Shown here: piece after piece, positions 3,101-37,332 of the stretch
Layout: each line of letters starts with the position of its first letter
Position numbering within the stretch: position 1 is the first letter of the stretch
DNA from: a virus
Length of the DNA stretch: 64,000 bases
IMG/VR virus record: IMGVR_UViG_3300020178_000002
Span: 124,001-188,000 of that record
Direction: 5' to 3' (one strand)
Translations under genes and position numbers: made by a program
The notes under the pieces: model-generated
What the model was told of the DNA's origin: nothing
Databases searched by the model: none
Seen by the model: the letters and a program-made list of their open reading frames with translations, nothing else

Positions 3101-6100
3101 ATTAACTTCCTCTGCCACAGTCAAGATGTTTGGTATCTGAGATTGTGTTATCTCTATGCTGTTAGCTGTATAGCCTGTCACTGATATGTTCTGTGCAAAA
3201 ACTTCTACACCATCATTGTTGACTGTTTTAATAAACCAACCAGCATCGTAAGTTAAAACAATCTGAAAAACAGAGTCTGGACCATAATAGTCATGGATCT
3301 TGATTGTTAAAGTACCACCATCAGTTGTTATCTTATCGAGTATTGAATCTATATTGTCATAGCCTGCAAATAAAATATCTGTAATTGAGCTATCCCAAGC
3401 AGATATTGAATTATTGTAGATCAACCTTTCTCTTACTGTCACACCTCTATCTAAATCTGATGCAAGCTCTACTGAAACATTTGTTAAAGAAAAAGAGTTT
3501 GCATCTGTGGGAGATTGGAAATGAGGCATTAGTAAATCCGTACCTTGTACCAAAGCCAACTCAGAGATCCCTGTAGCAGAACTACCTGCACCCAAAGACT
3601 CTGGCTTGATTAAGATCAAATCACCCTGTCTTGGACTTTGTAATGCATCTCCTGAAACAACAGAGAAATCTTCACTTGTAGTTAGGTAGCCAGATGCAAT
3701 CAGAGCACTGTTATCTCTTAAATCATCTGGGTAAACTGACTCTAAAACTCCATTATTACTTGCTTCAAGGAGAACTCTAGGGATTAACTTTTGGTTTTCA
3801 GCTAGTACATCTCTCTCGGAAAGACTCTTGAGATAAGGCAAGCTATAATCCCCTGCATCATTTACAGGCAATCCTTGTAAAGCTGGATATATAAAAGGGT
3901 CTACTGAATTATATACAAAGCTAGCCTTGCCCTCTAAAGCTGTAAGACCCTTTGGTACATTCTGATCTTCTATCTCTTTCCAAGGAAAGCTAGGGTCTTC
4001 AAAGCTAGGTAGAGAGATGTCTATGATTTCACCTGTGTTATACTTCAAGCCCACATCTGAACCGACTCTGTAAACATTCAGATTCTCCTCACTATCCAAG
4101 TCTTGATCTATGTTTTCAGATAAAGTGTCTCCAAGAACTATCTCTGCATCTGAAAGACTAACACCAGCCACCTCTAAAGTTCCTGAATTGCCATCTAAAA
4201 CAACCAAACACCCCGAAAGAAGCTTTGAGACTTTAGCTAATCTAGGCTTAGGTGGTACATCAAGACCAAACACAGAATCTAGCCTTGAAATATCACTAAC
4301 ATCAAGTATAGGCTGCATAAAATCTCCTACACTTAAAGAAAGATGTGTGCCTATACTCAAACCTTGAAAAACAAAGTCTGGGTTTCCTGTGGTAATGTCT
4401 GGTACAGAACCACCCTCTGAAATAAATCTAGCTGTATCTGGAAGCCCATTCAAATAAGGAAAATCATCAAGACTTACTGCTGATACAAGAAAAGTTGGCT
4501 GACCCTTAGATTGTAAATCAATCTCGGGAAAGCCATATGCAGAGTATGAAATAACCCTAAAGCGAGAAGGTCTTTTCTTTAATGTTAAAGAACTCAAGTT
4601 TGTTATCTGGCCTAGAGACAAGTTCTCTGCAAAAGCTATTACACTACCATTCGTGGTCTTGGCATCTCTGTCAGAATAAAGATCACCTGGAACAGTCACT
4701 GTTTGAATTTCTGTTTCAGTGGGAAATAGCCTACTGAAAATAGATGGCTCATAAGATTGCTGGTATTGAGGCAAATGACCATACCTCAAATGAGGATAAG
4801 GCAAAGTAATGTCTGTCTCTAAGCTTCTAGCCCAAGAGGTCATTACATAATCATCCATCTCATTCATGATAAGCTTCTTCTGATCCTCCATTAGACTCTT
4901 AAGAGTAGAAACATCTGGTGTCTTATCATCAACTTTAATTAAGTCAAATGCACTAGGATATAGATCAGAGTTTAAAGGATAAAGAAGCTCTTGTAGGACA
5001 TATCTAGGCTGAATCTCCCTTGTTAAAGGATCTTCTAAACCAGCACCGCCCCAATGACCTGCTTTCATTAAGTCAAACTTAAATCGACCATCTCTGTCTC
5101 CTACAACATCTCCTGTTGCCGTAGACATTATATCTTCAAGAGGTGAGACATATCCATCATAAAGCAGTACCCTAGATCGAGCCACCACATCTTCTGCAAG
5201 AATGTCATAGAAACTCAATGAACTACCATAGGTCACTGCACCATTTAATGTTCTCTTTGCACCATTCCCATTAGAGGATTGAACTCTCTTGATTAAATTG
5301 CCTGCAACTTCACCTGCATAAACATCCTCATCAACAACCCTTATGTTAAAGGTGTCTGGTGCATATACAAAACAACTAGTCTCTAAGTTTAAACCTTTAT
5401 ACTCAGAAGGCTGCTTAGAAGCCTTGTAGCTAATCTCATAACTTGGGTAACTTGCACGACCACCAGCTAAATAGATAGGGTTCAAACTTGTTAAAGCAGT
5501 ATGTAAGAAATAATAGCTTGTAGACTCTGAAACCCCTAAGCCTACGAGAATCACTAAACCTGTCTCTAAGTCTATCTTGTAGTCCTTGCCCTCTGATAAC
5601 TCGTAACCATAACCCTTCAAATGATCATATTTAATGAGGACATAAGGGTATTCAGAGATAACACCTGTTGAAACAGGCAAATTCTTCTCTCCCTCTTCCA
5701 ATATAGGTCTGTATGATACAATCAAAGAAGATGCGTCAGAAGTAAAACTGTGACCAAAACTAAATCCTTGTATAGTGATCAAGGTATAACCATCTTCGGT
5801 CAGTGTTGATTGTAGCACCTCATACAAAACACCCTCTACTCTCATCAGAGTTTGAGGCTTAAAGTAAGAAACAAAGTCTCCTTTGATTGTAAACTCTGGA
5901 CTCTTAGGCTTAGAGCGAAGCTCACAGCCCACTAAGGAAATAAATGCGTTTTGTCTGTCCACAGAGTCATAGGTCAATAGAGGTACTATAAACTTATAAA
6001 GCTTGCCTGCCTCTGTATTAGACCTACAAGGCAAAGTTGTTGTGATCTCGGATGATGAAACTGATGAAACCTCAAACCACTCAAGACCTACTTTGATCAA

Positions 6101-9100
6101 ATCCCCTGACTCAATCTCTCCTGTTAAGTCCACAGGTGTTAGGATTGTATTTGTGCCTTGGTCAATCTTAAACTTAGATGATAAAATCGAACCCGAAAGA
6201 CGAACCGCCTGTTCGCCCCCTATCGAACTTTTTACACCATAAGACACCTTGACCTTAGACTCAAGACTTACAGGCTCTCTAAAGGTAATCTGAGAGCCTG
6301 TAAAGGTGTATTCAAAACTTCTAAGCTTACGACTGTCTATATAAATAGATGGACTTAGATCAAACTCTACATCTCGACCCTCAGAATTGAATGTGTATCT
6401 CTTGTCTGATTGCCTAACGGCTTCCTCTCCCGAAACATAAAAAACCAATGTCTCAATCAAATCTTCACCATCAAGACTTGTATACAAAACCTCAAGACCA
6501 ATACCAGAATCCAAAGGCTCACTGAAACTTATAGAACCACTCGTTGGATTAAAGCTCACACCCAAAGTCTGAACCAAGAAAGAATCAAGACTTGCAAAAG
6601 GTGAACTAAGATCATCTCCAGATAAACTGACCTCTGCAATATCCTCTAAGTTTTCTCTAGGCTCTCTTATTAAGATTACATCTGATGTCACCCAATCTGA
6701 TTCAAACCAAGTCTCGCCATCCCACTCCTGAAAAACAAACCTGCCAGAGCTAGTAATAAACCTAAGATTGTCTACAGAAACTCCATCTCTATAATCAACA
6801 CCATCTACCCTAAGCCTATAAGAGTCTGACAATATATGAACGTCTTCTACATCATAATTGTAGTAAGGTGTCTTTTCCACATTCTCCTCTCGCAAAACCA
6901 CTAAAGGACAATCTTGCTCTCCACTCCTTATTAACAGCTTAGATTTAAAGTCTCTCACCTCGTCTAGTCTCAAAGTAGAGTAAACCTTATAAACCTCAAC
7001 ATCATCACTCGCTGAATAGGACTTCAAGACCTCTCCCGATAACCTAGTCAAGTCTGGTGTCTCTCCCTCAACTAAACCTTCCCTATAACCTCTCAAACAA
7101 GACCATATACCCTCTCCACTCACTAAGTCTGATGAACTTAAAGTAAACTGACCACCACCCATCACACTTTCTACTTTTACATAAAAGCTGCCCCAAGATA
7201 TAAAGTCACCTGCCCTAATTAAAGAAGAATCACCTAAAAGAGAATAAAGGCCAGAGCCTAAGTTTGTTAATGAATAACCTCGAGCTACCTCTGAACCAAG
7301 ATCTTTCTTTAATCTCAGAACTCCTTGCCTTATGTCATAGTCAACACCCTCTGTAAAAGTATCTTCTGTAAACCCTGCATCTCCAAAGTCACTCTTTACT
7401 TTTAAACTCGTACTGCCCTCAATTACACCATAGTCCAAGTTGATTGTAGATAAAGGCTCTCTTACTGAACCTCTCAAAGAACCTGAACCTATCCAATCAA
7501 AACCTAAACTGTTTACTCGATAGTCCTCTCCCTCTATTAACTTGTTCTCACCAGCCTTGTAATAACCACCATCACTATAACCACCTAAGTCTTGTCTAGG
7601 TCGGAAATTCAAAAACTGCTGCGTAGATACATCATTCACAACACCAATAGACTCTGAATCATATCTCTCATAACCCTTAACTGTACTGCCTAGCAGGTTC
7701 ATATATAAACCATTATGGCCACCTGGCATTAAACCCAATCCCTTTAACAAAATACGCTCTGACTCTGTAGATGGATAAGATACCTCATAACCCTCTTTGA
7801 TTAAAATATGACCACCTATGAAATCAACCCCATCACTACCAACAACACCTGACCTAGTGAAATCACAAACATCACCATTTGTTAGCCTAAAACTACCACT
7901 CTCCACTAACCAATTCTTCTCACTTAATTGGCTGGCATAAACTCCACCTAAACAACCTACACGACCACCATATAACTTATGACCCTCTGTCGAGACTAAC
8001 TTAGACCAACTACTCGCTAAATATACCCGACTGCCTAATATATAACCCACATTCCTATCCAACACCTTAGGCAAATCTTTAACAAATAAACACTCCAATA
8101 ACTCAGAGCCTATACCCACCCAATAACGCTTCTCACTGTAAGATAAAACTAACCTACTACCATCACTCTCAAAACCACTAGGCTCTACACCACTAGGCTC
8201 TACACCACTACCATCAGGTACAAAATCTAATGGTATATCCACTGAACCTACCACCTGACCTAAATCATAACCCACTAAGTCCAAACCACTGTGACCCAAT
8301 ACTAAACCATCATAAGATAAACCCTCTGATTCTATTGCACCATAGCTTATTCGACCATCTTCCAATAACTCCACAACTCCCCTCTCTATCTCCTCACTAA
8401 AATCTAAAACCCGAATAACCTCCATATAACCCCTATCACCATCTCTCAATAAAGGTGTCTCTATCACCGAAGGACAAGGAGATAAATATGAACCTCGACT
8501 TACCAAACTACCCTTTTCCTCTAAACCCTCTTGCCTTAAGTAAATCACTTCCTCTCCTAAATGACCCACTACTCCCAACTCTCCAGAGGGTGTATATACC
8601 ACCCCCTCTACTCCCTCTGGAATCTCACCACCATCACTTATTAAAGGGATCTCTAAACCACCTATCTCATAACTCTCTCCACCTAAAATTAATCGACCCT
8701 CTAAGCCCACAACCCCCAAATCATCACCAACTACTCCTATACTCTCTCCCTCTGTTCCCATCAATAATGACCAACTACTCCCTGACCAATAATACCTAGA
8801 ACGCTCTATGTCATTTCTAGTCCACCAAAAACCTAAACCCACTAAACCTAAACCAACATCTAAATCTGATCTGTCACTCTCTACTACTGTACCCCTATAC
8901 AATAACCTTAAACTACTACCCAAATCATCAAACACTTCCGATACAAGACCATCCCTCAAACCCGTACCATAATAATGCTTCTCTCCAACTGCATAAAGAT
9001 ATGTAAAAGATATATCCCGACTCTCTACCCCTATCTCCCCATCTCCTGCACTTATATATAAAATGTCTCCTAAATCTCCACCTATGAAATAATCCTCTCG

Positions 9101-9208
9101 ACCCTTTAATAAACCATCCTTATATGAATTGTCTAAACTCCTTAAAGCCAGAGAAGTTGAAGGACTATTGTCGTCACCACTGCGTACATCTAATATGATC
9201 TTGCTCAT
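185..9208 (-). CDS. Giant beta-rich virion protein (3007 aa), probable tail or baseplate component
   Basis: A single 3007-residue reading frame, preceded by AGGA eight bases from the ATG. The chain is rich in Ser, Gly, Leu, Asp, Tyr and Val with almost no long helix. At least part (about residues 860-990) is built of short beta modules with a strand, a turn and a closing 'VxVxY' strand (for example KVKVSYG and GLEVLYTS), the same style as modules inserted in the sheath protein at 42.2 kb. No enzyme motif, signal peptide or coiled coil is visible. Length, beta-strand style and a coupled upstream small structural-looking gene point to a tail fibre, baseplate or tail-decoration protein. Family knowledge gives no exact match; the tail role is inference. 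Confidence 0.7.
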   Translation of the reverse strand: MSKIILDVRSGDDNSPSTSLALRSLDNSYKDGLLKGREDYFIGGDLGDILYISAGDGEIGVESRDISFTYLYAVGEKHYYGTGLRDGLVSEVFDDLGSSLRLLYRGTVVESDRSDLDVGLGLVGLGFWWTRNDIERSRYYWSGSSWSLLMGTEGESIGVVGDDLGVVGLEGRLILGGESYEIGGLEIPLISDGGEIPEGVEGVVYTPSGELGVVGHLGEEVIYLRQEGLEEKGSLVSRGSYLSPCPSVIETPLLRDGDRGYMEVIRVLDFSEEIERGVVELLEDGRISYGAIESEGLSYDGLVLGHSGLDLVGYDLGQVVGSVDIPLDFVPDGSGVEPSGVEPSGFESDGSRLVLSYSEKRYWVGIGSELLECLFVKDLPKVLDRNVGYILGSRVYLASSWSKLVSTEGHKLYGGRVGCLGGVYASQLSEKNWLVESGSFRLTNGDVCDFTRSGVVGSDGVDFIGGHILIKEGYEVSYPSTESERILLKGLGLMPGGHNGLYMNLLGSTVKGYERYDSESIGVVNDVSTQQFLNFRPRQDLGGYSDGGYYKAGENKLIEGEDYRVNSLGFDWIGSGSLRGSVREPLSTINLDYGVIEGSTSLKVKSDFGDAGFTEDTFTEGVDYDIRQGVLRLKKDLGSEVARGYSLTNLGSGLYSLLGDSSLIRAGDFISWGSFYVKVESVMGGGQFTLSSSDLVSGEGIWSCLRGYREGLVEGETPDLTRLSGEVLKSYSASDDVEVYKVYSTLRLDEVRDFKSKLLIRSGEQDCPLVVLREENVEKTPYYNYDVEDVHILSDSYRLRVDGVDYRDGVSVDNLRFITSSGRFVFQEWDGETWFESDWVTSDVILIREPRENLEDIAEVSLSGDDLSSPFASLDSFLVQTLGVSFNPTSGSISFSEPLDSGIGLEVLYTSLDGEDLIETLVFYVSGEEAVRQSDKRYTFNSEGRDVEFDLSPSIYIDSRKLRSFEYTFTGSQITFREPVSLESKVKVSYGVKSSIGGEQAVRLSGSILSSKFKIDQGTNTILTPVDLTGEIESGDLIKVGLEWFEVSSVSSSEITTTLPCRSNTEAGKLYKFIVPLLTYDSVDRQNAFISLVGCELRSKPKSPEFTIKGDFVSYFKPQTLMRVEGVLYEVLQSTLTEDGYTLITIQGFSFGHSFTSDASSLIVSYRPILEEGEKNLPVSTGVISEYPYVLIKYDHLKGYGYELSEGKDYKIDLETGLVILVGLGVSESTSYYFLHTALTSLNPIYLAGGRASYPSYEISYKASKQPSEYKGLNLETSCFVYAPDTFNIRVVDEDVYAGEVAGNLIKRVQSSNGNGAKRTLNGAVTYGSSLSFYDILAEDVVARSRVLLYDGYVSPLEDIMSTATGDVVGDRDGRFKFDLMKAGHWGGAGLEDPLTREIQPRYVLQELLYPLNSDLYPSAFDLIKVDDKTPDVSTLKSLMEDQKKLIMNEMDDYVMTSWARSLETDITLPYPHLRYGHLPQYQQSYEPSIFSRLFPTETEIQTVTVPGDLYSDRDAKTTNGSVIAFAENLSLGQITNLSSLTLKKRPSRFRVISYSAYGFPEIDLQSKGQPTFLVSAVSLDDFPYLNGLPDTARFISEGGSVPDITTGNPDFVFQGLSIGTHLSLSVGDFMQPILDVSDISRLDSVFGLDVPPKPRLAKVSKLLSGCLVVLDGNSGTLEVAGVSLSDAEIVLGDTLSENIDQDLDSEENLNVYRVGSDVGLKYNTGEIIDISLPSFEDPSFPWKEIEDQNVPKGLTALEGKASFVYNSVDPFIYPALQGLPVNDAGDYSLPYLKSLSERDVLAENQKLIPRVLLEASNNGVLESVYPDDLRDNSALIASGYLTTSEDFSVVSGDALQSPRQGDLILIKPESLGAGSSATGISELALVQGTDLLMPHFQSPTDANSFSLTNVSVELASDLDRGVTVRERLIYNNSISAWDSSITDILFAGYDNIDSILDKITTDGGTLTIKIHDYYGPDSVFQIVLTYDAGWFIKTVNNDGVEVFAQNISVTGYTANSIEITQSQIPNILTVAEEVNWPSNAAWETWLYNSVALSHFWGAVIAYRFFTRQGSERVAEMGLGNNYPIIYLDYRLDVEFGLSNSDYIDSNRLDFISDFDFNSLHSNTNEQTLLDAGGGQTSLKVTSVFEILSSGVFVKEESGGGFTLIESDINTNTKMGYDPYLFDSGLIEVIDLNRLRFKSLHNISRSDLPLSLFVGSEVQESGEILSGTGRYGKYTSVLAPFSSFRGFIREISEDLGSLENVQIGDLIYLDKGHASGTHRISSVELVDNSSTFAESLTNSSILGAVFPTITSVSYDLGVARIETDMEDLSLHFNDAGYREIVILLNDNYLVAPSSEVLGAYDQTFSTSALRLEYDSLDGSSFLVSSDPEYLDGQSLLLSSLPALLDSAGQTIAGIHKFSFDTLKTSLVSSLHIVDVEGSFDYSLQVAGGLTGTSSSLSSIYDGFIVSGLYTLRVLFGGSWSASFASILDGAGNDYGEAFITPEDIITFTVNSYRGIYLDNSFPELWRDYRGTEPVLLGDPTSQVKTFSDYTVSGTTGWVGYEEVGFVVRRLRRFSELFTRLHTTLTGFRFLYDERYGIVSQIDRVGDLIRLASVEDYFDYSGQGTNIGLFTDTVSIGDIVRCFDEEDNETLKFRVSEVDDTYLLGKVVSGSLSDLHSYFKVEVRDSLVPEIQSFEKFISHGFEEVYSSEPVDGISVDQVNELTDTNVDFNLLLNADDQELYYLIIDPQGLLPNTLDEYGQPPLGDDSQGVFGSPSPLDDNRGVYKITSFTANSISVEFYAGDDNPEDYFLPLVNGVSSNELRVTSGIENGTYTANPNSIHPFSYKIYKRKTYLNDSLAALVFFFRERTLSWADKIRQFNSIPLERQTWALYEAEDLIDKVGVNDNTHPSNDLLISTILGDGSFPFSDDMLSVPDRRLLVEDPQMLNEGHTLVTGMPSLFNSGLSIMEAREKRNRWIKVRTNTVEGTLQKLSRIDLASPDIKALEDIDE

Positions 9209-17550: not shown

Positions 17551-17904
17551 ATGAAAGATAGAGAGTACACAGAGATTGTTAATGGCAAGAGAGTAGCTCA
17601 CCAAGAATTGATTTTATATTATTATCGTGAAGATCGCAAAGTGGTCATAAGCAAAGTGCTTAAAGAGTTGAATTTCGTAGAGGTTGAGGGCTTAGTATCT
17701 AATGATGTGTATTTCATTAACTCTAAGGACTGTGATCTTAGAGTTAAATGGACATTTCCTACTCAACTAGAAATTGGATTTTGTAGTATTGAGAAGGAAG
17801 TTTGGTTTGATGATGAAGAAGATTCTTATAGAGACTTCAAATTTGTGAAAAGGTTTATTGAGGCAGTTAGGCAATGTTGGGAGGGTGTAGAAGATGTTGG
17901 GTGA
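17551..17904 (+). CDS. NGKR/IRxxW family protein, member 1
   Basis: 117 residues, GAGAGGA before ATG. First of the tandem family: N-terminal motif YTEIVNGKRVA (6-16), a helix ending in LKELNF, three or four strands, and a C-terminal helix ending in AVRQCWEG. The same three landmarks occur in the genes at 18603, 19449, 19796, 20113, 20451 and 36961. No catalytic residues stand out; about 110 residues with one alpha/beta domain. Directly behind a terminator, overlapping a decayed copy of the family by 11 bases. Family function unknown; size, tandem copies and fast divergence suggest host- or defence-facing proteins. Confidence 0.65.
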   Translation: MKDREYTEIVNGKRVAHQELILYYYREDRKVVISKVLKELNFVEVEGLVSNDVYFINSKDCDLRVKWTFPTQLEIGFCSIEKEVWFDDEEDSYRDFKFVKRFIEAVRQCWEGVEDVG

Positions 17905-18035
17905 TTATACGGAAGTAGTTAATGGTAAGAGAGTCCCTTTAAAGCATTTAAAGGGTGAGATACCATCGTATGTATCTTTATGACATAGTGAGTTGTATCC
18001 TTAGAGACATAAGAGCAGCTTGGGAAAAGGGTTAG
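17894..18035 (+). pseudogene. Decayed NGKR/IRxxW family member
   Basis: From ATG at 17894 the first 16 codons encode MLGDYTEVVNGKRVPL, nearly the start of the gene at 18603 (MLGDFTQVVDGKRVAL), but the frame stops at 17983 after 29 residues. In another frame the following bases encode VSCILRDIRAAWEKG and a stop (18033-18035), the family's C-terminal helix. The middle of the domain, about 60-70 residues, is missing. This is an internally deleted, frameshifted remnant; a 29-residue peptide could still be made. Confidence 0.7.
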
Positions 18036-18061
18036 TCTCTCAGGAGGGGGGGGTCTTATAT

Positions 18062-18154
18062 ATGAGCGTTTTTGGAAAAGCGGTGTTGAAGAAGTGGTCT
18101 CATATATTATTTGGGTTTGTGGATTTTGGGTTTGATTTTGAAAGGGGGTTTTAG
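18062..18154 (+). CDS. Possible 30-aa peptide
   Basis: ATG at 18062 lies 14 bases after a very strong AGGAGG, spacing longer than ideal. It encodes a basic-aromatic peptide (MSVFGKAVLKKW..., ending FDFERGF) whose stop is inside the following terminator. The start is within the 5' arm of an inverted repeat (ATATATGAG 18058-18066 with CTCATATAT 18099-18107). It may be expressed or may be part of the decayed region. Confidence 0.3.
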   Translation: MSVFGKAVLKKWSHILFGFVDFGFDFERGF

Positions 18155-18176
18155 ATTTTTCTAAGCCCCCTTTTTT
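18144..18176 (+). terminator. Rho-independent terminator
   Basis: GGGGG (18144-18148) and TTAG pair with CTAA and CCCCC (18166-18170), followed by six T. The C run also serves as the C box of the promoter-like motif that follows. Confidence 0.8.
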
Positions 18177-18186
18177 GTTTTGATAA
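18166..18186 (+). promoter_or_regulatory. C-run/TTTGATAA promoter
   Basis: CCCCC (18166-18170), 7 bases, TTTTGATAA (18178-18186), 28 bases before the ATG at 18215. Partly built from the preceding terminator. Confidence 0.5.
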
Positions 18187-18214
18187 TAAGGGTAAACATA
18201 AGAAAGGATTTAAG

Positions 18215-18613
18215 ATGGTATTTATTTACAGCAACAATTTCGGACATCTTGCACATAAGAGATTTTTTGATGTCTTGGAAGTGAATGGGGGAGAGGTATT
18301 AGCAAAGCTTGACAGTGGTGAGGATTTGCTAGTTTGCTTTGATGGTTTCTTAACAGAATTAGCAAATGGTCATGTGGTTTATGATGTGGGAGTATTTGAC
18401 CCAGAGAAGAGTTATGAGGATCTGGACAAGTACTATGGTTTGATAGTGGGGGATGTCTTACATATCAGCAAGTCATTCTCTGAGATAGAGAATAAGGCTT
18501 TTGATATGGGAGAGGGTCTTAACTTGGACAAGGCTGGTTCAGAGTTGGACAAGATAGAGGATTTGGAATCAGAATTGAAGTTGAAGAAAGAGAGGCTTGG
18601 TTATGTTAGGTGA
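18215..18613 (+). CDS. Unknown small acidic protein
   Basis: 132 residues, AAAGGATTTAAG before ATG. The first 70 residues look like a small beta barrel (FFDVLEVNGGEVLAKLDSGEDLLVCFDG, then GLIVGDVLHISKSF), the last 35 a charged coiled coil (LDKIEDLESELKLKKERLG). It overlaps the next gene by 11 bases, so it is expressed together with a member of the NGKR family. Family not recognised. Confidence 0.6.
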   Translation: MVFIYSNNFGHLAHKRFFDVLEVNGGEVLAKLDSGEDLLVCFDGFLTELANGHVVYDVGVFDPEKSYEDLDKYYGLIVGDVLHISKSFSEIENKAFDMGEGLNLDKAGSELDKIEDLESELKLKKERLGYVR

Positions 18614-18941
18614 TTTTACTCAAGTGGTTGATGGTAAGAGGGTAGCTCTTGAGAGTTTGAAGAATGAGTTCTTTTCAGATGATATTTTTGATCTTCAATT
18701 TACTTTATTCAAAGAGCTTAATTTTATATTTGTTGGTGAGGAGTCTGGTCTTAGTACCTACAGACATGCAGTGGACTCGTCATTAGAGATAGTTTATGAA
18801 TATGATAACACTTTTGCTTTTAAGTATAAGGATAGTTTTTTAAGGATTGAGCTTAAGAATGGTATTTGTGTTTATGATGGTGTTGAGACTTTTCTATCGA
18901 GTATAAGATCTGTTTGGGCTAAGGGAAAAGACTCACATTAA
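18603..18941 (+). CDS. NGKR/IRxxW family protein, member 2
   Basis: 112 residues from ATG at 18603 (GAGAGG upstream; an upstream TTG is less likely because the paralogous remnant starts with the same MLGD). N-motif FTQVVDGKRVAL, central LFKELNFIFVGEE, C-terminal helix FLSSIRSVWAKG. The decayed copy at 17.9 kb is its closest relative at the N-terminus. A terminator follows within 25 bases, so this ends a two-gene unit. Confidence 0.65.
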   Translation: MLGDFTQVVDGKRVALESLKNEFFSDDIFDLQFTLFKELNFIFVGEESGLSTYRHAVDSSLEIVYEYDNTFAFKYKDSFLRIELKNGICVYDGVETFLSSIRSVWAKGKDSH

Positions 18942-18962
18942 GTTTGTGGTTTTGGGAGTGGG

Positions 18963-18991
18963 GGGGTTTAGAAAAAACTAACCCCTTTTTT
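18963..18991 (+). terminator. Rho-independent terminator
   Basis: GGGG-TTTAG (18963-18971) pairs with CTAA-CCCC (18978-18985) with one bulged T, followed by six T. Confidence 0.8.
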
Positions 18992-19001
18992 GTTTTGATA
19001 A
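18982..19001 (+). promoter_or_regulatory. C-run/TTTGATAA promoter
   Basis: CCCC (18982-18985), 7 bases, TTTTGATAA (18993-19001), followed by TAAGGGTAAA exactly as at 18.2 kb. ATG of the next gene is at 19038. Confidence 0.5.
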
Positions 19002-19037
19002 TAAGGGTAAATGGAACGATTAAAGGAGATTAAGATT

Positions 19038-19283
19038 ATGGATAGATTTTTAAGTTTAGTATCTTTGTTCTTTTTCCTCTTGGGTATATCTTGTTTTGGC
19101 AATTTGCCTATGCCTTACAAGGGTGGTTCAACAGGATATATTTGTGAGGGTTACGAGGGTATTCAGTTAGTAGAGATGATGACAACGAACAGTAGAAAGT
19201 TTTTTGGAGAAGACAAGGTGCTGTCTTATGCCTATATATATAAGACATGTGAGATAGTGGAGTTACCGACAAATGGGAATTAA
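19038..19283 (+). CDS. Small secreted or membrane protein
   Basis: 81 residues from the ATG with AAAGGAG upstream; the in-frame ATG at 19011 lacks a ribosome site. N-terminal hydrophobic segment FLSLVSLFFFLLGISCFG (about 3-20) is a signal peptide or anchor; LGISC could act as a weak lipobox. The mature part has two cysteines (YICEGYEG, YKTCEI) that may form a disulphide in the periplasm. First gene of a unit of overlapping small genes. Confidence 0.6.
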   Translation: MDRFLSLVSLFFFLLGISCFGNLPMPYKGGSTGYICEGYEGIQLVEMMTTNSRKFFGEDKVLSYAYIYKTCEIVELPTNGN

Positions 19284-19452
19284 GATAATTTACACAGTAT
19301 TAGCTTTTGTATTTGGTTACTTGGCATTGGGTTTCTTTTTAGAGAGGTCAATAAATAAGAATGGTTTTTGGAGTATGGCGAACTTGAAGTTGATCTTTTA
19401 TTTCAATGTTGTATTTGCTGGTTTGTTTTACTACTTGAGGTATTGGCTATGA
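19273..19452 (+). CDS. 59-aa membrane protein with two hydrophobic segments
   Basis: ATG at 19273 lies inside the end of the preceding gene, and the TGA overlaps the next ATG at 19449 (ATGA), so it is packed between two genes with no spare base. The product has two membrane spans, VLAFVFGYLALGFFL (about 9-23) and LIFYFNVVFAGLFYYL (about 40-55), separated by a short polar loop. Small-holin-like or inhibitor-like architecture; no family recognised. Confidence 0.6.
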   Translation: MGIKIIYTVLAFVFGYLALGFFLERSINKNGFWSMANLKLIFYFNVVFAGLFYYLRYWL

Positions 19453-19799
19453 GATACACAAAGGTAGAGAATGGCCAGAGGGTTTGGTCTTCAGATTCCG
19501 CAGCTATGACTTTATATCAAGATGCACGAATGGATGCAGGTGGTTTAGGTTCAAGTTATTTTAATGTTATGCTTAAACATGCTTTATTGGAGTGTGGTTT
19601 TAAAGAGCTTGCGGAGAATACTCTGATATATGTGCTTGGTGATCCTCCATTGGGTTCACCTCTTCTTGGAGGTCGTGTGCAGATAATGACTTACAATAAT
19701 TTGTATAGGAAGAAGATATCTGTAGCGAGTGAAAAAGGTTTGGAAGAGGTTAAGGACATATTGCAGTTATTTGATTTAATAAGGAGTCATTGGAAATGA
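19449..19799 (+). CDS. NGKR/IRxxW family protein, member 3
   Basis: 116 residues starting with MRYTKVENGQRVWSS at the ATGA overlap; an upstream ATG at 19368 would run through the small membrane gene. Family landmarks: YTKVENGQRVW, LKHALLECGFKELAENTLIYVLGDP, and LFDLIRSHWK at the end. Very similar in plan to the genes at 19796 and 20113. Confidence 0.65.
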   Translation: MRYTKVENGQRVWSSDSAAMTLYQDARMDAGGLGSSYFNVMLKHALLECGFKELAENTLIYVLGDPPLGSPLLGGRVQIMTYNNLYRKKISVASEKGLEEVKDILQLFDLIRSHWK

Positions 19800-20116
19800 G
19801 TTTAACAGAGGTAGTTAATGGTAAGAGGGATTGGGCTGAAGTGTTTTTGCCAGCATATCTAAACAGGACACTTATGGCATCTAATTTGGATATGCATATG
19901 ATAGGTGAGGTTTTAGAGGAGTGTGGCTTCTCGAAAGAGTATGGCAAAGAGCTTTGGTTTCTGGGAGAGCCTTTTTGTGATCATATGAGGGGTCAGATAG
20001 AAATACTCTCATCTGGTCAGGGTCAGGGGATTTCTATAAGGTCATCAGAGCACATGGAAACGATCACAGATTTTAATTTATTTTTTGAGAAGATTAGGGA
20101 ACATTGGGAGTTATGA
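19796..20116 (+). CDS. NGKR/IRxxW family protein, member 4
   Basis: 106 residues; start ATG overlaps the previous stop. MSLTEVVNGKRDW at the N-terminus, LEECGFSKEYGKELWFLGEPF in the middle, and FEKIREHWEL at the end. The first 13 residues are identical to member 5, while the middle has diverged. Confidence 0.65.
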   Translation: MSLTEVVNGKRDWAEVFLPAYLNRTLMASNLDMHMIGEVLEECGFSKEYGKELWFLGEPFCDHMRGQIEILSSGQGQGISIRSSEHMETITDFNLFFEKIREHWEL

Positions 20117-20454
20117 GTTTAACAGAGGTAGTTAATGGCAAGAGGGATTGGACAGATCTTAATTCAGTGGCAGGTAGGTATAAGGCTGCTCTTGAGTATG
20201 TTGATGCCACTAGTGATTTTAATGAAATACTTAAAGGAGCTTTGCTTGAGTGTGGTTTTAAGGAGGCAGAGAACAGGTATGTTTACAAACTTGGAGAGCC
20301 TATTAGTGAGGATCATGGTCATGCTCGAGTTATGGTTTATACTTATATGAGTTTGAAAACTTTTGGTTTTATTAAGGTGACGAGTAGAAATGGTATAGAA
20401 GAGGTTAATGATATATCAGAGTTATTTAATTTAATAAGGAGACATTGGAAATGA
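20113..20454 (+). CDS. NGKR/IRxxW family protein, member 5
   Basis: 113 residues; start ATG overlaps the previous stop. MSLTEVVNGKRDW, LKGALLECGFKEAENRYVYKLGEP, FNLIRRHWK. Its middle resembles member 3 more than member 4, suggesting exchange or unequal duplication among copies. Confidence 0.65.
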   Translation: MSLTEVVNGKRDWTDLNSVAGRYKAALEYVDATSDFNEILKGALLECGFKEAENRYVYKLGEPISEDHGHARVMVYTYMSLKTFGFIKVTSRNGIEEVNDISELFNLIRRHWK

Positions 20455-20828
20455 GTTTAACAGAGATTGTTAATGGTAAGAGAGATTGGACAAAAGAGGG
20501 TAAGCAGGTTATCCAGAACATTTTGAGTTGGGGCATGGACAAGGGCAACTATATGATGTTAGAGGACATTCTAACATTGGAGCTTGAGAAGACAGATTTC
20601 TCAAAAAAGGTATTGTGTGGAGATGGTAAGCGTAAGGCAATATGGGAGTCAGAGTGGGGTTGTTTGATTTACCTTGACTTGGACATGGAGACAGAGGTGG
20701 ATTCAACTTTCCATGTGAGCCTATTAAACTACAGGGGTTTTGATTCTACTAACATTCTGGATTTATGGGGTTTGATCAGACAAACTTGGGTTTGGAAGCA
20801 AAAGAACGATGCATGGGAAAACAGGTAA
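20451..20828 (+). CDS. NGKR/IRxxW family protein, member 6
   Basis: 125 residues; start ATG overlaps the previous stop. MSLTEIVNGKRDW is nearly unchanged, but the rest is diverged: LELEKTDFSKKVLCGDGK in place of the ECGF segment and LWGLIRQTWVWKQ as the terminal helix, with a 10-residue charged extension. Last of the overlapping run. Confidence 0.65.
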   Translation: MSLTEIVNGKRDWTKEGKQVIQNILSWGMDKGNYMMLEDILTLELEKTDFSKKVLCGDGKRKAIWESEWGCLIYLDLDMETEVDSTFHVSLLNYRGFDSTNILDLWGLIRQTWVWKQKNDAWENR

Positions 20829-20921
20829 GCTTTTTCGATATCTTGTACCCCCCTCTTTCTTTCGATTCTTCAAAGTAATACCGATCAGGCAAGAGTTTGG
20901 TGTTTAAGTCCTTGAGTTTAG

Positions 20922-20950
20922 AAGCAGGCCATTAGGTCTGCTTTTTTTTT
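20922..20950 (+). terminator. Rho-independent terminator
   Basis: AAGCAG (20922-20927) pairs with CTGCTT (20938-20943), followed by a T run. It closes the unit of NGKR-family genes about 95 bases after the last stop. Confidence 0.8.
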
Positions 20951-27797: not shown

Positions 27798-27845
27798 TTT
27801 ATATCACCCTTAGCTTGTAAAAAGTGTAATCAGCGAGGGTTATAT
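27798..27845 (+). promoter_or_regulatory. TTTATA promoter candidate and SD-covering hairpin
   Basis: TTTATA (27798-27803) overlaps the 5' arm ATATCACCCT (27801-27810), which pairs with AGGGTTATAT (27836-27845) at nine of ten positions. The ribosome site GAGGG lies in the 3' arm, just before ATG 27847. Confidence 0.55.
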
Positions 27846-27846
27846 A

Positions 27847-28947
27847 ATGAATAAAGTATCTGCACAGCAAATCAGATCTCTTGAGGTCAGAATAGCTAGG
27901 CTTGAAAAAGAAGCTGGCTTTCAAGAGTTTATGGAAAGTGTCTCTAGTACATTTAAAAGCATAGTTAACATTCCTAAAAACATGGTGATTAGGATAATAA
28001 ATGCTTTTAAAGAAATTTTTACAACTGTAGAACTGTCATTAGAAGACGAAGAAAAAACAATTGAAAATGCACTTGGCTTTTTATTGGGTTCTCGCATCTT
28101 TAGAGCAATGGCTGGAGTCATAACAACAACAGATGATTTGCCTACGATTGTTAAATTCAATAGGAAGCAGCCTTTAAAGTCTACATTCACGGGTGGGCTT
28201 GCAGGAAAGGCTAAGGTTCAATTAAAGAACCTTATTAAGCGTTATAATGAAACAAACCAGACAAGAATGAAGTCTGCCTATCTTTCATGGTATTCAGATT
28301 TCAAGCACATCCTAAACCCAAAAATTAAAGAAGTTGAGGGTGTTGAATTTGCACTTCGAGAAATCAAGAAGGTCTCAAAGTTAGCATATAGGTTCTTGTC
28401 TTCAATCATCTCTGTATTAGGTGGTGTTGTTGCTATTAAAGGGACAGTGATCTCAACTCTGCTATTTATACTAGGTAGGATCTTTTTGCAGAAGTATGGT
28501 TTTCCAGTAGGAAGACCTAGTGAATGGACTCAAAATGAAGTTGTTTTTTCAAAGGTCACTGTTGAACCCGTAAATGCTACTATACATAGGAATGTAATAG
28601 ACGTTACCAGAGATAGATATAGTGATTATAAGAAACTTTCTCCTATACAAAAGCAGATTTTTGTTGAAAAAATACATGCTAAGGTAGAACAACACCCAAT
28701 GAAAAATTGGCAACCAGATTCAGCAGCTAACCTTCAAGATGTTAAGGATTGGATTAGATGGAAGCCTATTCAGTTTACCACAGCAATCTTGACACCTATT
28801 TTAGCACTCATTGAAACAATTATGTACAAGTGGGTGATTAAGACAGACGAATATGATGAAATGGTAAAAGAGCTAGAATCAAGAAATAAGAAAGCTTCTC
28901 AATACCCAACACTCTCTTATTTAACTCAGATTTTAGAAGGCAGGTGA
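27847..28947 (+). CDS. Tagged membrane-active family protein 1 (366 aa)
   Basis: Tag MNKVSAQQIRSLEVRIARLEKEAG (1-24), then an amphipathic region SIVNIPKNMVIRIINAFKEI shared with the next three paralogues, then STFTGGLAGKAKVQLKNLI and MKSAYLSWYSDFK. Two hydrophobic stretches (FLSSIISVLGGVVAIKGTVISTLLFIL, about 183-209, and AILTPILALIETIMY near the end) suggest membrane contact. C-terminus: KASQYPTLSYLTQILE. Close paralogue of the gene at 28951. Internal virion protein that interacts with the host membrane during entry is my inference. Confidence 0.7.
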   Translation: MNKVSAQQIRSLEVRIARLEKEAGFQEFMESVSSTFKSIVNIPKNMVIRIINAFKEIFTTVELSLEDEEKTIENALGFLLGSRIFRAMAGVITTTDDLPTIVKFNRKQPLKSTFTGGLAGKAKVQLKNLIKRYNETNQTRMKSAYLSWYSDFKHILNPKIKEVEGVEFALREIKKVSKLAYRFLSSIISVLGGVVAIKGTVISTLLFILGRIFLQKYGFPVGRPSEWTQNEVVFSKVTVEPVNATIHRNVIDVTRDRYSDYKKLSPIQKQIFVEKIHAKVEQHPMKNWQPDSAANLQDVKDWIRWKPIQFTTAILTPILALIETIMYKWVIKTDEYDEMVKELESRNKKASQYPTLSYLTQILEGR

Positions 28948-28950
28948 GAC

Positions 28951-30051
28951 ATGAATAAGGTATCAGCACAACAAATTAGATCTCTTGAGCTTAGGATAGC
29001 TAGGCTTGAAAAAGAGGCTGGCTTTATAGATGATATGGTAGGTGTCTTTAAAAAGACACTCAACATACCTAAGAATATGTTCTTAAAGATACTTTATGCC
29101 TTCAAAGAAGTTTATGATGATGTTGTTGTATGGAACACAGAATCAGAATCTAAGGCTATGGATTCATTAGGTGCATTATTGGGCATAAGAATATTTAGAT
29201 CTTTAGCTGGTGTTATAACTACAAGTGAGGGTTTACCTAAAATTGTCAAGTTCAACTACTCTGACCCTTTAAGCTCAACCTTCACAGGTGGACTTGCAAT
29301 GAAGTCTAATATCCCTCTTAAGAAGCTTATCAATATGTATGAGGGTGAGAACCAGACCAGAATGAAGAGAGCTTACACTTCATGGTATGCAGACTATAAA
29401 GAAATCATAAACCCTTCTGTCTCTGATAGAGAAGCGATTGATATTTTCTTAGATCTTTGTAAAAGAGGTGGGAAGTGGCTCTATCGCTTAATGACTGCCC
29501 TTATAGGTTTGGTTGGTATAGCGACTCTTAAGTCCACAGTCATATTCAACATCATTATTATGGTTGTACAGAGATATGTGCAGATAGGGATGTTTGATTT
29601 TCGAAATATGGATAAGAGAATTCTGGACTTCCAAGAAACAACAGTAAAGTATATAGACATAAAATCTGTTAAGTATCTTGAAGCAGAGGGTGTTATTGAA
29701 AACACTCACAAATTCATATCTGATGTTCTGGTTGGTGGGAGAGGGTATGTTCCTCGAAAAGAAGTAAAGGAATTTACTCTCGCTATTGTTGAAAAGCCCT
29801 TGCAGAAATACCAACCTATTGATTTTGTGTCTTGGAAAAAAGTTAGAGAGTACATGACACAAAACTACACTACCTTTATTGGTGTTTTCCTAACAGGATT
29901 CTTAGCTCTACTTGAGAAAGCACTTTATAAATGGGTCTTTAAAACAGAAGACTATGAAAAGATGAAAGCTGAAAGTGATGCAATGGGCAAGACAGCTTCT
30001 AAATACCCTGCAATTGCTTATATGGCTAGAAAGCTAGAAAGCTATTTATGA
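28951..30051 (+). CDS. Tagged membrane-active family protein 2 (366 aa)
   Basis: Same length and plan as the preceding gene: tag 1-24, LNIPKNMFLKILYAFKEVYDD, STFTGGLAMKSNIPLKKLINMYEGENQTRMKRAYTSW, hydrophobic LYRLMTALIGLVGIATLKSTVIFNIIIMVV (about 172-201), hydrophobic IGVFLTGFLALLEKALYKWVF, and KTASKYPAIAYMARKLESYL. Three bases separate it from the previous stop and it overlaps the next ATG. Clear tandem duplicate with moderate divergence. Confidence 0.7.
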   Translation: MNKVSAQQIRSLELRIARLEKEAGFIDDMVGVFKKTLNIPKNMFLKILYAFKEVYDDVVVWNTESESKAMDSLGALLGIRIFRSLAGVITTSEGLPKIVKFNYSDPLSSTFTGGLAMKSNIPLKKLINMYEGENQTRMKRAYTSWYADYKEIINPSVSDREAIDIFLDLCKRGGKWLYRLMTALIGLVGIATLKSTVIFNIIIMVVQRYVQIGMFDFRNMDKRILDFQETTVKYIDIKSVKYLEAEGVIENTHKFISDVLVGGRGYVPRKEVKEFTLAIVEKPLQKYQPIDFVSWKKVREYMTQNYTTFIGVFLTGFLALLEKALYKWVFKTEDYEKMKAESDAMGKTASKYPAIAYMARKLESYL

Positions 30052-30632
30052 TATACTCGCTTCAATGTACCTACTCAAATGGCATAAGAATAAACTCTTT
30101 AAATATATCACTTGCTAATGGACAGTCTTTCGATTGCCCAAAGCAAACATATGATACTAATAAAGAAATCCAAGCTCTGGTGTCCTCTGGTATGTTGAAG
30201 CTAAAAGTAAAAGAACACAAGTCTGGCCTTAGAGCGAACTCTAATAAACGAGTTTTACGAAGCAACCCGACTAATGAGAGAGTTGTAGAGAGAGTTGTAG
30301 AGAGAGTTGTTGAATCCCCAATAGACATGGATGCAATCACTAGGAATGTAGTTGAGCAAATAGGTGCTGTACTATCTCCTGAGATATTGGCTCAAGCAAT
30401 TGCAGCACAACTCCCTACTGTCCAAGCTAATTACCCACAGAAAAATGAGGGTAATAGTTCTTTTATGTCTTCTAGTGAAGACAATCTAATGTTTATCCCC
30501 TCTACTATTGTAGATAGAAATACTGTTGCTTCTAAATCCTCTGCCTCTGAAAGCATATCGGAAGACTCTGATGGTCTTGCTGATGCTATGGCTGCTTTAA
30601 AAGCAATGAAAAAGAAGAAAGGTCAAACCTAA
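30048..30632 (+). CDS. Unknown protein between tagged paralogues
   Basis: 194 residues; ATG overlaps the previous TGA and the stop overlaps the next ATG. The first 60 residues form a small beta domain (LQCTYSNGIRINSLNISLANGQSFD); residues about 80-92 are a short repeat (ERVVERVVERVVES, coded by a 12-base tandem repeat near 30277-30312), then a Ser-rich linker and a basic end with MAALKAMKKKKG. No tag. Placement inside the tagged run suggests a virion or assembly protein. Confidence 0.6.
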   Translation: MIYSLQCTYSNGIRINSLNISLANGQSFDCPKQTYDTNKEIQALVSSGMLKLKVKEHKSGLRANSNKRVLRSNPTNERVVERVVERVVESPIDMDAITRNVVEQIGAVLSPEILAQAIAAQLPTVQANYPQKNEGNSSFMSSSEDNLMFIPSTIVDRNTVASKSSASESISEDSDGLADAMAALKAMKKKKGQT

Positions 30633-31564
30633 TGAATAAAGTATCTGCACAGCAAATCAGATCTCTTGAAATGAGAATTGCCAGACTCGAAAGAGAGGCT
30701 GGTCTTAAAGAAATCTTTGATGACATCTCTGGATTTGTTAAAGGTGTTGTTAACATTCCTAAAAACTTCATCAAGAAAATCATCAATGTTTTCAAAGATG
30801 TTGGAAACAACCTAACTGTCCTTCTTTCAAAACAAGAAGATAGGATTGTTAGAGCCCTTAAATCTGCATTGGGAATCCGAGTAGCTGCGACTCTTGAAGG
30901 CTTTGTTATAGATACTAGAGATCTTCCTATCATTGTAGACTTTAATCTTATGAATCCTATTAAGTCTACTTTCACAGGTGGCAATGCAGGATCTTCAAAA
31001 GTATCTTTGGACAAGTTGGCATCTCTCTATGATGGAGAAGAAGCTAGAAGAATTAAGTCAGCTTTCCTTTCATGGAAATCAGACTACCTTCCTTCTTTAA
31101 ATGCATTACAAGGAAAAGATGATGTTGGAGTTATTAAGGGCTTTCTAAAACTGATACAAAGGTCATCTAAACTGCTTTACAGATTCTTGAAGATTGCTCT
31201 AAGCATATTCAGCATTGCCCAGCTTATTGCAGCACCTTGGGGATCTTGGGTTTTAGGTTTAGCTATGGTCTTCATAGGGAATCATAATATGTTGCCTATA
31301 TCAGCCGACTATACTCTTCTAACAGATAAGAGTCTAGCTAATATTATGGATGCCAAAGACTTCTTACCTCGTAATGAAGTTCCATTGTTGAAATCTTTTG
31401 GTCCTGCTATTATCACTACTGTTCTTAAGATTCTTGAAAAAGCATTCTATCGCTATGGTGTTAATGTTGATGCCTTTGACGAGGAATCTATGGGTAGAAC
31501 AGCTTCTCAATTCCCAAGAGTTGCTTCTGTAACTAGAAGACTCGAACACTACGCTTACGCTTAA
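30632..31564 (+). CDS. Tagged membrane-active family protein 3 (310 aa)
   Basis: Tag MNKVSAQQIRSLEMRIARLEREAG; then GVVNIPKNFIKKIINVFKDVGNNL; STFTGGNAGSSKVSLDKLASLYDGEEARRIKSAFLSW; a hydrophobic segment FLKIALSIFSIAQLIAAPWGSWVLGLAMVFI; and LEKAFYRYGVNVDAFDEE with MGRTASQFPRVASV at the end. The last about 110 bases are nearly identical to those of the gene at 31740, while the middles differ, pointing to gene conversion or recent duplication of the ends. Confidence 0.7.
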   Translation: MNKVSAQQIRSLEMRIARLEREAGLKEIFDDISGFVKGVVNIPKNFIKKIINVFKDVGNNLTVLLSKQEDRIVRALKSALGIRVAATLEGFVIDTRDLPIIVDFNLMNPIKSTFTGGNAGSSKVSLDKLASLYDGEEARRIKSAFLSWKSDYLPSLNALQGKDDVGVIKGFLKLIQRSSKLLYRFLKIALSIFSIAQLIAAPWGSWVLGLAMVFIGNHNMLPISADYTLLTDKSLANIMDAKDFLPRNEVPLLKSFGPAIITTVLKILEKAFYRYGVNVDAFDEESMGRTASQFPRVASVTRRLEHYAYA

Positions 31565-31571
31565 TATCTTA

Positions 31572-31615
31572 TTTATCATTAGCTTCCTGTGAAAAAAACA
31601 CAGGGGGCTGATGAT
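31572..31615 (+). promoter_or_regulatory. TTTAT promoter candidate and 17-bp SD-covering hairpin
   Basis: TTTAT (31572-31576) runs into ATCATTAGCTTCCTGTG (31575-31591), which pairs along its whole length (three G-U pairs) with CACAGGGGGCTGATGAT (31599-31615) across a loop of seven A. The ribosome site AGGGGG is fully inside the stem, eight bases before the ATG at 31616. Confidence 0.65.
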
Positions 31616-31747
31616 ATGACAAGATACCAGATGAAAAGATTAGAGATGAGGATTTCCAGAAAACTCGAAAGGAAGTCCAAACTTCAACTTCAGCGTATCT
31701 ATCAGAGATTAGCTTCTTTAGAAAAAGAGGTTAAATCCAATGAATAA
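31616..31747 (+). CDS. 43-aa coiled-coil peptide related to the tag
   Basis: ATG preceded by AGGGGG at eight bases; stop overlaps the next gene by eight bases. The product (MTRYQMKRLEMRISRKLERK... LASLEKEVKSNE) is one basic helix with two tag-like runs, RLEMRISRKLE and RLASLEKEV. It has little besides the tag itself, so it may be a free-standing tag-like coiled-coil partner or a truncated cargo gene. Confidence 0.55.
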   Translation: MTRYQMKRLEMRISRKLERKSKLQLQRIYQRLASLEKEVKSNE

Positions 31748-32669
31748 AGTATCTGCACAGCAAATCAGATCTCTTGAAATGAGAATAGCTAGACTTGAAA
31801 GAGAAGCTAGCTTTCAAGATGTTTTGGATGACATCAGTGGTTTTGTTAAAGGTGTTGTTAATATCCCTAAGAACTTTATTAAAAACATCATCAATGTTTT
31901 GAAGGATGTAGGTAACAACCTTAAAGCAACTTTTGCTGAACAGCGTGAAGTTATTTGTGAAGCCCTAGAGTCTGCATTGGGAATCCGAGTAGCTGCTACT
32001 CTACAAAACTTTATTGTAGATACCAGAGACATGCCTGTTATCGTTGAGCTCAATGTAATGAACCCAATCAAGTCGATATTCACAGGTGGTAAAGCTGGTT
32101 CTTCAAAGTATGCTCTTGATAAGCTGGCATCTCTTTATGACCGTGAAAGGTCTAAAAGAATCAAGTCTGCATACCTCTCTTGGAAGTCAGACTACTCTTC
32201 TCAAATAGATATTCTTCAAGGAAAATTTGATGAGTCTAACTCTGTTAAAAGATTAATGAAGTTTCTTCAAAGAAGCTCTAAGGTTGCTTATAGATTTTTC
32301 AAAGTTCTTTTCAGCATAGTCTCTATGACAGAGGTTATTGCAGCACCTTGGGGCTCTTGGATTATTGACCTAGCAACAATTACAGTAGGGTCACTTGATC
32401 TAATACCATTTTTACCAAAAGAGTCATGGACTCTTAGTAAAGTTGAAAGTATCACTGGTTTATCTTTCACTACCAATACCCTGAGTAAAAGTGTGGTCAA
32501 GACAATCCCTGCTACAATAGTCACCTCTGTTCTTAAGCTTCTTGAAAAAGCATTCTATCGCTATGGTGTTAATGTTGACGCTTTTGACGAGGAATCTATG
32601 GGTAGAACAGCTTCTCAATTCCCAAGAGTTGCTTCTATAACTAGAAGACTTGAAAACTATATCCTTTAG
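31740..32669 (+). CDS. Tagged membrane-active family protein 4 (309 aa)
   Basis: Same plan as the gene at 30632: tag 1-24, GVVNIPKNFIKNIINVLKDVGNNL, KSIFTGGKAGSSKYALDKLASLYD, hydrophobic FFKVLFSIVSMTEVIAAPWGSWII, and the nearly identical C-terminal block AFYRYGVNVDAFDEE. AGAGG ten bases before ATG. The two genes differ most at about residues 190-265. Confidence 0.7.
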   Translation: MNKVSAQQIRSLEMRIARLEREASFQDVLDDISGFVKGVVNIPKNFIKNIINVLKDVGNNLKATFAEQREVICEALESALGIRVAATLQNFIVDTRDMPVIVELNVMNPIKSIFTGGKAGSSKYALDKLASLYDRERSKRIKSAYLSWKSDYSSQIDILQGKFDESNSVKRLMKFLQRSSKVAYRFFKVLFSIVSMTEVIAAPWGSWIIDLATITVGSLDLIPFLPKESWTLSKVESITGLSFTTNTLSKSVVKTIPATIVTSVLKLLEKAFYRYGVNVDAFDEESMGRTASQFPRVASITRRLENYIL

Positions 32670-32683
32670 AAAGGCTCGAAAGA

Positions 32684-33091
32684 ATGAATAAAGTATCTGC
32701 ACAGCAAATCAGATCTCTTGAAATGAGAATAGCTAGACTCGAAAGAGAGGCTGGTCTTATAGACCATTTCTATAAATCTCCATACAAAGAAAAACTAAGC
32801 CCTGAAGATATAATAAAAGGCTTTATTAAAGTTTTTAATCGTGCTTGTAGACATGGAAGTGTTATGTCTATCTACTCAGACCCATATGAAAATGATTTCA
32901 TCCTTACCTTGAGACTTAACATCGGGATTGTAAAAATAAAAGTTTCTATAGATGGGGAATTGATAGAGGTCTATAAAAATGATGGTGCTGTATACACAAG
33001 GCTTATGGCATCTTTTGAATACAAAGATATTAAAAAGGGAATGGTCAAGGTTGTTAAAGCCCTTGAAGCTAAATCTATTTACTATGTATAA
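32684..33091 (+). CDS. Tagged protein, short (135 aa)
   Basis: The first 24 codons repeat the tag of the preceding gene almost base for base, but the rest is unrelated: a compact alpha/beta domain (GFIKVFNRACRHGSVMSIYSD, DFILTLRLNIGIVKIKVSIDG, LMASFEYKDIKKGMVKVVKAL). A different cargo fused to the same tag. AAAGG before ATG. Last gene of the unit before the actin-like gene. Confidence 0.65.
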   Translation: MNKVSAQQIRSLEMRIARLEREAGLIDHFYKSPYKEKLSPEDIIKGFIKVFNRACRHGSVMSIYSDPYENDFILTLRLNIGIVKIKVSIDGELIEVYKNDGAVYTRLMASFEYKDIKKGMVKVVKALEAKSIYYV

Positions 33092-36931: not shown

Positions 36932-36961
36932 ATATAAGTCCTCTTAAAAGGAGACTTATAT
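36932..36961 (+). promoter_or_regulatory. SD-covering hairpin
   Basis: ATATAAGTC (36932-36940) pairs with GACTTATAT (36953-36961), a 9-bp perfect stem. The ribosome site AAGGAG (36948-36953) lies in the loop and the foot of the 3' arm; the stem reaches the first base of the TTG start. The sequence just 5', TTCATATAAG, is a variant of the TTTATA motif. Confidence 0.55.
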
Positions 36962-37332
36962 TGAAATACACCGAAATAAAAAATGGCCTTAGAGTGCTTA
37001 CTGTGGATGCTATTGGGATAATCAATGAAGCAAAGTTCCAGGCTGAAGAAGAAAAGGCAATAGAAGTAGTTGTAGCTGCTTTAGAAGAAGCAGGGTTCAA
37101 AAAGAAAGATGAGTCCCAACCAGATCGTGTTTTGATTATGGTACATAATTCAGAAAGCTTCCCTATTGAGATTTACTTTTTCTTGCCAGCATACACAGGA
37201 GGTTTTGTTCTTCAAAGTGGCTGGGAGATTATAGGTTGGCATAATAATAGTCAAAGCATAAATGAGATGAAGAACATCTTCAGCCATATAAGATCTTGCT
37301 GGAAGCAACAGTTTAAGAAGGATTCTTTATAA
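36961..37332 (+). CDS. NGKR/IRxxW family protein, distant copy
   Basis: 123 residues starting with TTG seven bases after AAGGAG. YTEIKNGLRVL at residues 3-13, LEEAGFKKKDESQPDRVLIMVH in place of the ECGF segment, and IFSHIRSCWKQ near the end show it belongs to the 17.5-20.8 kb family. It stands alone 16 kb away, under a hairpin. Its 3' end overlaps the convergent gene by 20 bases. Confidence 0.65.
   Translation: MKYTEIKNGLRVLTVDAIGIINEAKFQAEEEKAIEVVVAALEEAGFKKKDESQPDRVLIMVHNSESFPIEIYFFLPAYTGGFVLQSGWEIIGWHNNSQSINEMKNIFSHIRSCWKQQFKKDSL

Follow-up and report, generated by a model that had tools for sequence, protein, structure and literature searches.

What kind of gene stays recognisable at both ends while nearly everything between them changes? 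The question is raised by a cluster of small genes in a 64,000-nucleotide stretch of viral DNA (hereafter the window; G000:C1:124001-188000 of the 312,136-base IMG/VR virus record IMGVR_UViG_3300020178_000002, here G000), in which coordinates refer to the window unless stated otherwise. The cluster belongs to a family whose proteins start with TxxxNGxR, end a helix with LxExGF and finish on IRxxW, and the record harbours 11 intact members, seven inside the window and four outside it, together with one deletion remnant. Of the 692 open reading frames (ORFs) of the record, 11 combine both end motifs, a combination absent from all of 200 shuffled-protein sets; this confirms that the shared ends noticed in a preliminary description of this DNA are not due to chance; the family profile recovers the members with E-values of 1e-15 to 1e-29. 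As judged by comparison of related genomes, the family is shown to change, in part of its jumbo-phage group, by tandem duplication, deletion and whole-gene replacement at recurrent slots.

Kin phages were located via the capsid gene and then searched with the family profile. Approximately 38 additional members were identified in kin with near-identical major capsid proteins; the copies number 16 in G002 (375,691 bases), 13 in G003 (a fragment of 226,698 bases) and 11 in G008 (290,179 bases). Each of the three largest positive records thus carries 11-16 copies; G004-G006 and others carry fewer and G015 (316 kb) a single weak one. In the case of the sister genomes G002 and G003, a 355-bp family gene is either present (G003) or absent, and the 85%-identical flanks break off at its start codon, homology returning with the start codon of the following gene. 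At a second slot of the same pair, flank homology stops 4-5 bases before the family gene and each phage has a different member; at this slot G029, with matching flanks 89-93% identical to those of G002, carries a member of the G003 type where G002 has a very different one. One gene pair (orthologues of 23096/23656) is preceded upstream by a family cluster in four genomes, with members that differ. Gain, loss and replacement at fixed sites between sister genomes, as characterise a rapidly turning over accessory multigene family, have thus been seen. A set of tools for coping with hosts that change would be expected to behave in this way.

The eight reciprocal-best family pairs of G002 and G003 share a median identity of 61%, whereas 51 other genes reach 85% (p=0.002; p=0.02 when compared with genes of ≤160 amino acids, aa). 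Since synonymous divergence of the family orthologues is likewise raised, part of this excess may reflect replacement or older divergence and not faster amino acid change. Purifying selection dominates the family orthologues, with a ratio of nonsynonymous to synonymous substitution rates (dN/dS) of 0.10-0.32 in the measurable pairs, and no gene-wide sign of positive selection was seen. The expansion and fast change proposed in the preliminary description are therefore borne out by copy number, by orthologue identity and by the exchange of whole genes. The search for homologues that it called for returned multi-copy genes less conserved than others of the same genomes, and not the invariant structural proteins that it had named as contrary evidence.

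The AlphaFold model of the member at 20113 (member 5; 38 aligned sequences) reached a predicted local distance difference test score (pLDDT) of 92.1 and a predicted template-modelling score (pTM) of 0.84. It comprises strands 4-7 and 10-13, helices 16-28 and 30-46, strands 57-60, 73-76, 87-91 and 94-98, and a helix at 101-112. Structure prediction, suggested earlier for all members, was run for one more, a divergent 100-aa protein of G008, and yielded the same order of elements (pLDDT 82.4). In the model the first hairpin is formed by TxxxNGxR and the last helix by IRxxW, and LxExGF closes the main helix. The alignment has its lowest entropy at the N-terminus and near the helix cap and the C-terminal helix. 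Four residues stand out in the alignment (member 5 numbering): R109 (38/38), R11 (37/38), E46 (35/38) and W112 (35/38). The sole aligned member without R11 is also without E46, and a salt bridge between these residues would fit this joint loss, seen in one lineage. On the strength of the models, the family consists of single-domain proteins of 100-170 aa with one predicted fold: an N-terminal β-hairpin, the LxExGF helix, three to four antiparallel strands and the C-terminal IRxxW helix. Both ends are indeed conserved, as first described, but the picture of constant ends around a variable middle is better read as a single fold with a core drawn from both ends (N-terminal hairpin, helix cap, C-terminal helix) than as a detachable tag joined to a payload.

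When 38 members were scanned against Pfam, PHROG, NCBIfam and PADLOC, no match exceeded the cut-off and there were isolated weak hits only; the best profile match among PDB sequences had an E-value of 0.28. Foldseek returned no PDB hit at E<0.001 for the two models, and no significant viral match was found in BFVD. The sequence family thus has no counterpart in any library searched, nor its modelled fold in PDB or BFVD.

The explanation favoured here, at somewhat less than even confidence, is that these are fast-turnover single-domain proteins of host interaction or counter-defence, with a shared scaffold and a varied binding face; we infer the function. Each protein would be a stand-alone binding or inhibitor domain acting within the infected cell. 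Its scaffold would be held by the invariant core (R11, E46, R109 and W112); a binding face, made up of loops, strand edges and the variable helix, would be tuned in each member to a different target of the host or of a rival element, most plausibly one involved in defence or takeover. Members are mostly acidic (median charge -2), which fits protein binding somewhat better than DNA binding. Translational coupling would allow sets of variants to be produced together, and sequence common to the gene ends would let recombination insert, delete and exchange whole variants with the operon left intact. Identical amino acids within the G000 cluster are encoded by identical codons in 75/102 cases at the N-terminal ends versus 81/146 in the middles (p=0.005), an excess that is suggestive of recent sharing of gene ends; between genomes no such synonymous excess at the ends was found (562/1439 versus 1251/3075). 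Anti-CRISPR and other counter-defence accessory loci likewise encode small, fast-changing operonic proteins that turn over at fixed loci; such loci, however, usually mix unrelated folds, whereas the family described here re-uses one fold many times.

Several observations weigh against this explanation. One recurrent site adjoins a structural module, which is not suggestive of a classical early accessory region. Selection on the orthologues is purifying, some copies are well kept between sisters (76-87%), and no match to any defence profile searched was obtained nor any known inhibitor recognised. LR745208 and G017, whose capsid proteins are 89-94% identical, are without recognisable members, so either the group can do without the family or its members have diverged beyond recognition in these phages. 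The pairs compared in the test of synonymous sites are, moreover, non-independent. The arms race with the host put forward in the preliminary description is hence plausible but unproven, given the low dN/dS, the raised synonymous divergence and the lack of a defence-related match.

A bolder form of the same idea, tentative and rather unlikely as a whole, would have the phage carry an array of inhibitors that can be re-armed. A small fold not described before would be kept in at least a dozen variants per genome, every one of them directed against another immune or regulatory target of the host, and the shared gene-end sequences would allow whole genes to be exchanged at dedicated slots. If the members are inhibitors, they would be an unusual case of a single scaffold re-used against many targets. 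Irrespective of this, a sequence family with a confidently predicted fold, neither of them matched in the libraries searched, is abundant in part of a capsid-defined group (>500 environmental contigs), and its slots and swaps offer a direct, testable way to choose candidate host-interaction genes in jumbo phages with almost no annotated accessory functions.

The other explanations rank, in descending order, as virion-internal proteins, nucleic-acid binders, client-specific adaptors and near-neutral turnover. The first of them, improbable but the best of the four, holds that the members belong to the virion, as internal (ejected) or decoration proteins; their shared parts would direct them to the prohead, and the variable part would do its work in the cell once injected. 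The L-x-E motif of the family superficially resembles prohead-protease sites, and one recurrent site adjoins the protease and neighbouring structural-module genes in G002 and G003. The internal proteins of T4, a diverse anti-restriction set sharing only a capsid-targeting sequence, offer a model, and demonstrate that a diversified set of small proteins can serve counter-defence, IPI being directed against a restriction enzyme (PMC3012670). Most members, however, lie outside structural modules, and cleavage at LxE would split the predicted fold. The shared N-terminus is predicted with high confidence to be a folded hairpin and is conserved jointly with the C-terminal helix, unlike a cleaved tag. 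The likeness to IPI and its T-even relatives extends to small size, high diversity and a short conserved sequence in common, but the T4 proteins have only the targeting sequence in common and are proteolysed, while the present family conserves both ends, which are predicted to lie within the fold. The structure described for IPI, two sheets with a helix at each terminus flanking them, is unlike the family model, and no sequence match between T-even internal proteins and the family was found. Since a separable N-terminal capsid-targeting tag is not seen in the predicted structure, the family is not filed with the T4 internal proteins.

A slightly poorer chance is given to nucleic-acid-binding regulators that would tune phage or host RNA. 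The order of secondary-structure elements in the minimal member, with an α-β3-α core, resembles that of the double-stranded RNA-binding domain (dsRBD), and a possible DNA-binding zinc ribbon has been expanded to ~35 copies in the related Bacillus phage G (PMC7824862). The Foldseek match to dsRBD is nevertheless non-significant (best E 1.5, TM 0.26-0.32), a dsRBD has no counterpart of the N-terminal hairpin, and the acidic character of most members also speaks against this role. Phage G provides the only precedent met in the literature on jumbo-phage multigene families, and shows that lineage-specific expansions in jumbo phages are already known. The two cases are alike in that a small domain has expanded within one lineage, and the phages are related (38% identity of the capsid proteins), but zinc ribbons have two CxxC-type ligand pairs, and the 11 members of G000 contain 0-3 Cys, too few for such a fold.

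Small adaptors or chaperones, each serving a different phage client such as a tail-fibre or other variable protein, seem less probable again. A single conserved α/β scaffold with a variable face would suit them, and some copies do have large variable genes in their vicinity (at L209/L211, not far from orthologues of the 9-kb gene at 185-9208 of the window), but cassettes swap without a change of the neighbouring client, most flanks remaining 81-93% identical, and no constant partner gene accompanies the members. The weakest candidate, a largely neutral recombinogenic family undergoing birth and death under weak selection with no specific role per copy, would account for the remnant, the copy-number turnover and the junction repeats that would promote turnover anyway, yet it sits poorly with a dN/dS well below 1 in all measurable pairs, with R109 invariant and R11, E46 and W112 nearly so despite very low overall identity, and with just one decayed copy in G000.

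The features of the cluster are listed in Table 1. All six intact genes of the preliminary description were found at their claimed starts, as was the distant copy, and the four members outside the window lay beyond the DNA that it covered; the decayed copy retains both constant ends, has lost its middle and is frame-shifted. The four-gene ATGA chain proved correct, and the small hydrophobic gene before it is joined to it likewise.

Table 1. Family members and accompanying features of G000 (window positions, except in the last row).
Feature	Position	Strand	Remarks
Family member 1	17551..17904	+	117 aa, VRQCW tail
Remnant copy	17894..18035	+	Constant 5' end 17894-17983 (MLGDYTEVVNGKRVPLKHLKGEIPSYVSL), constant 3' end 17982-18035 one frame over (DIVSCILRDIRAAWEKG), middle deleted
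30-nt perfect repeat, copy 1	18167..18196	+	Between units; T-run plus TTGATAATAAGGGTAAA
Unrelated gene inside cluster	18215..18613	+	132 aa; equally C-poor
Family member 2	18603..18941	+	112 aa; start within 3' end of 18215 gene
30-nt perfect repeat, copy 2	18982..19011	+	Identical to copy 1
Unrelated small gene inside cluster	19011..19283	+	Hydrophobic N-terminus
Unrelated small hydrophobic gene	19273..19452	+	ATGA-coupled to member 3
Family member 3	19449..19799	+	116 aa; ATGA-coupled to preceding and following genes
Junction repeat, copy 1	19726..19841	+	3' end of member 3 and 5' end of member 4; 116 nt
Family member 4	19796..20116	+	106 aa; ATGA-coupled
Family member 5	20113..20454	+	113 aa; ATGA-coupled; structure predicted
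Junction repeat, copy 2	20381..20496	+	3' end of member 5 and 5' end of member 6
Family member 6	20451..20828	+	125 aa; ATGA-coupled
Intrinsic-terminator-like hairpin	20920..20945	+	3' of cluster
Family member 7, distant single copy	36961..37332	+	123 aa, TTG start; groups with kin-phage member, support 95/82
Further intact members (profile search)	85826-86332(-), 209075-209404(-), 224877-225329(+), 225326-225769(+)		Outside the window; positions of the record

The two junction repeats are 84% identical over 116 nt, with a 92-bp core at 89%. Among the loci fetched, the core of the 30-nt repeat (CCCCTTTTTTGTTTTGATAATAAGGGTAAA) was found only at its two listed positions and in duplicate copies of the region; this repeat may be a terminator/promoter junction. 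A promoter scan performed no better than on shuffled sequence.

In the tree, members 1 and 2 pair as an apparent local duplication, while other members have partners in other genomes: 36961 with a G004 member, the 224877/225326 pair with a pair of G002, and 209075 with a G005 member. The paralogy would thus be partly old and partly recent, in a tree whose bootstrap had not settled and in which many deep forks are unresolved.

The C-poor coding strand noted earlier is real (C 0.116 in the G000 family genes versus 0.167 in 327 other ORFs, p=4e-6) but regional. As a property of the family it was ruled out, because the unrelated cluster genes at 18215 and 19011 are as C-poor, whereas the G008 family genes, taken together, are not. 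The 5' part of the 9-kb gene (3007 codons, minus strand) is also C-poor on its own coding strand, with very strong skew of up to 0.65. In G008, two adjoining family genes (L214:18778-19536) have a skew of 0.74-0.75 and only 5-6% C, unlike the other members in that phage.

The record belongs to a widespread jumbo-phage group, its capsid protein occurring in >500 environmental contigs. The gene at 56564-57442 matches the PHROG major head protein (E 8.5e-51), and its product shares 91-100% identity with the 80 best of 516 confirmed IMG/VR contigs; accessory genes vary widely among phages with near-identical versions of this protein. The identity to named or public phages is 89% for LR745208 (an uncultured phage, 485 kb), 47% for Tunturiibacter phage Tunturi_5 and 38% for phage G. 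LR745208 and Tunturi_5 are the nearest phage-collection records by capsid protein and protease, yet, unlike G000, they contain no family member by profile, nor do G017 and phage G.

Pattern scans (A1, A2) and a 23-nt degenerate start-motif search of IMG/VR returned only the same phage and chance matches. Contigs of sample 3300018036 represent this same phage (35 kb at 100% identity) and so give no polymorphism information on the cluster. None of 29 pattern matches in bacterial and archaeal genomes was confirmed, and no family match was found in plasmids or named phages; the match in Dinoroseobacter phage R5C (E 0.1), lying inside a larger gene (~325 aa), was rejected as chance.

Elsewhere in the window, a paralogous gene block at 27838-32763 contains direct repeats of 78-97% identity, and 60900-62267 matches the eukaryotic-type topoisomerase I catalytic core (Pfam PF01028). 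Small DNA-methyltransferase-like genes were found at L019:3590-4132 and its neighbours (G000, ~301-305 kb of the record); several tandem ORFs of G008 (L215:3831-7401) match them, and a family member (L215:8673) lies directly downstream of that array.

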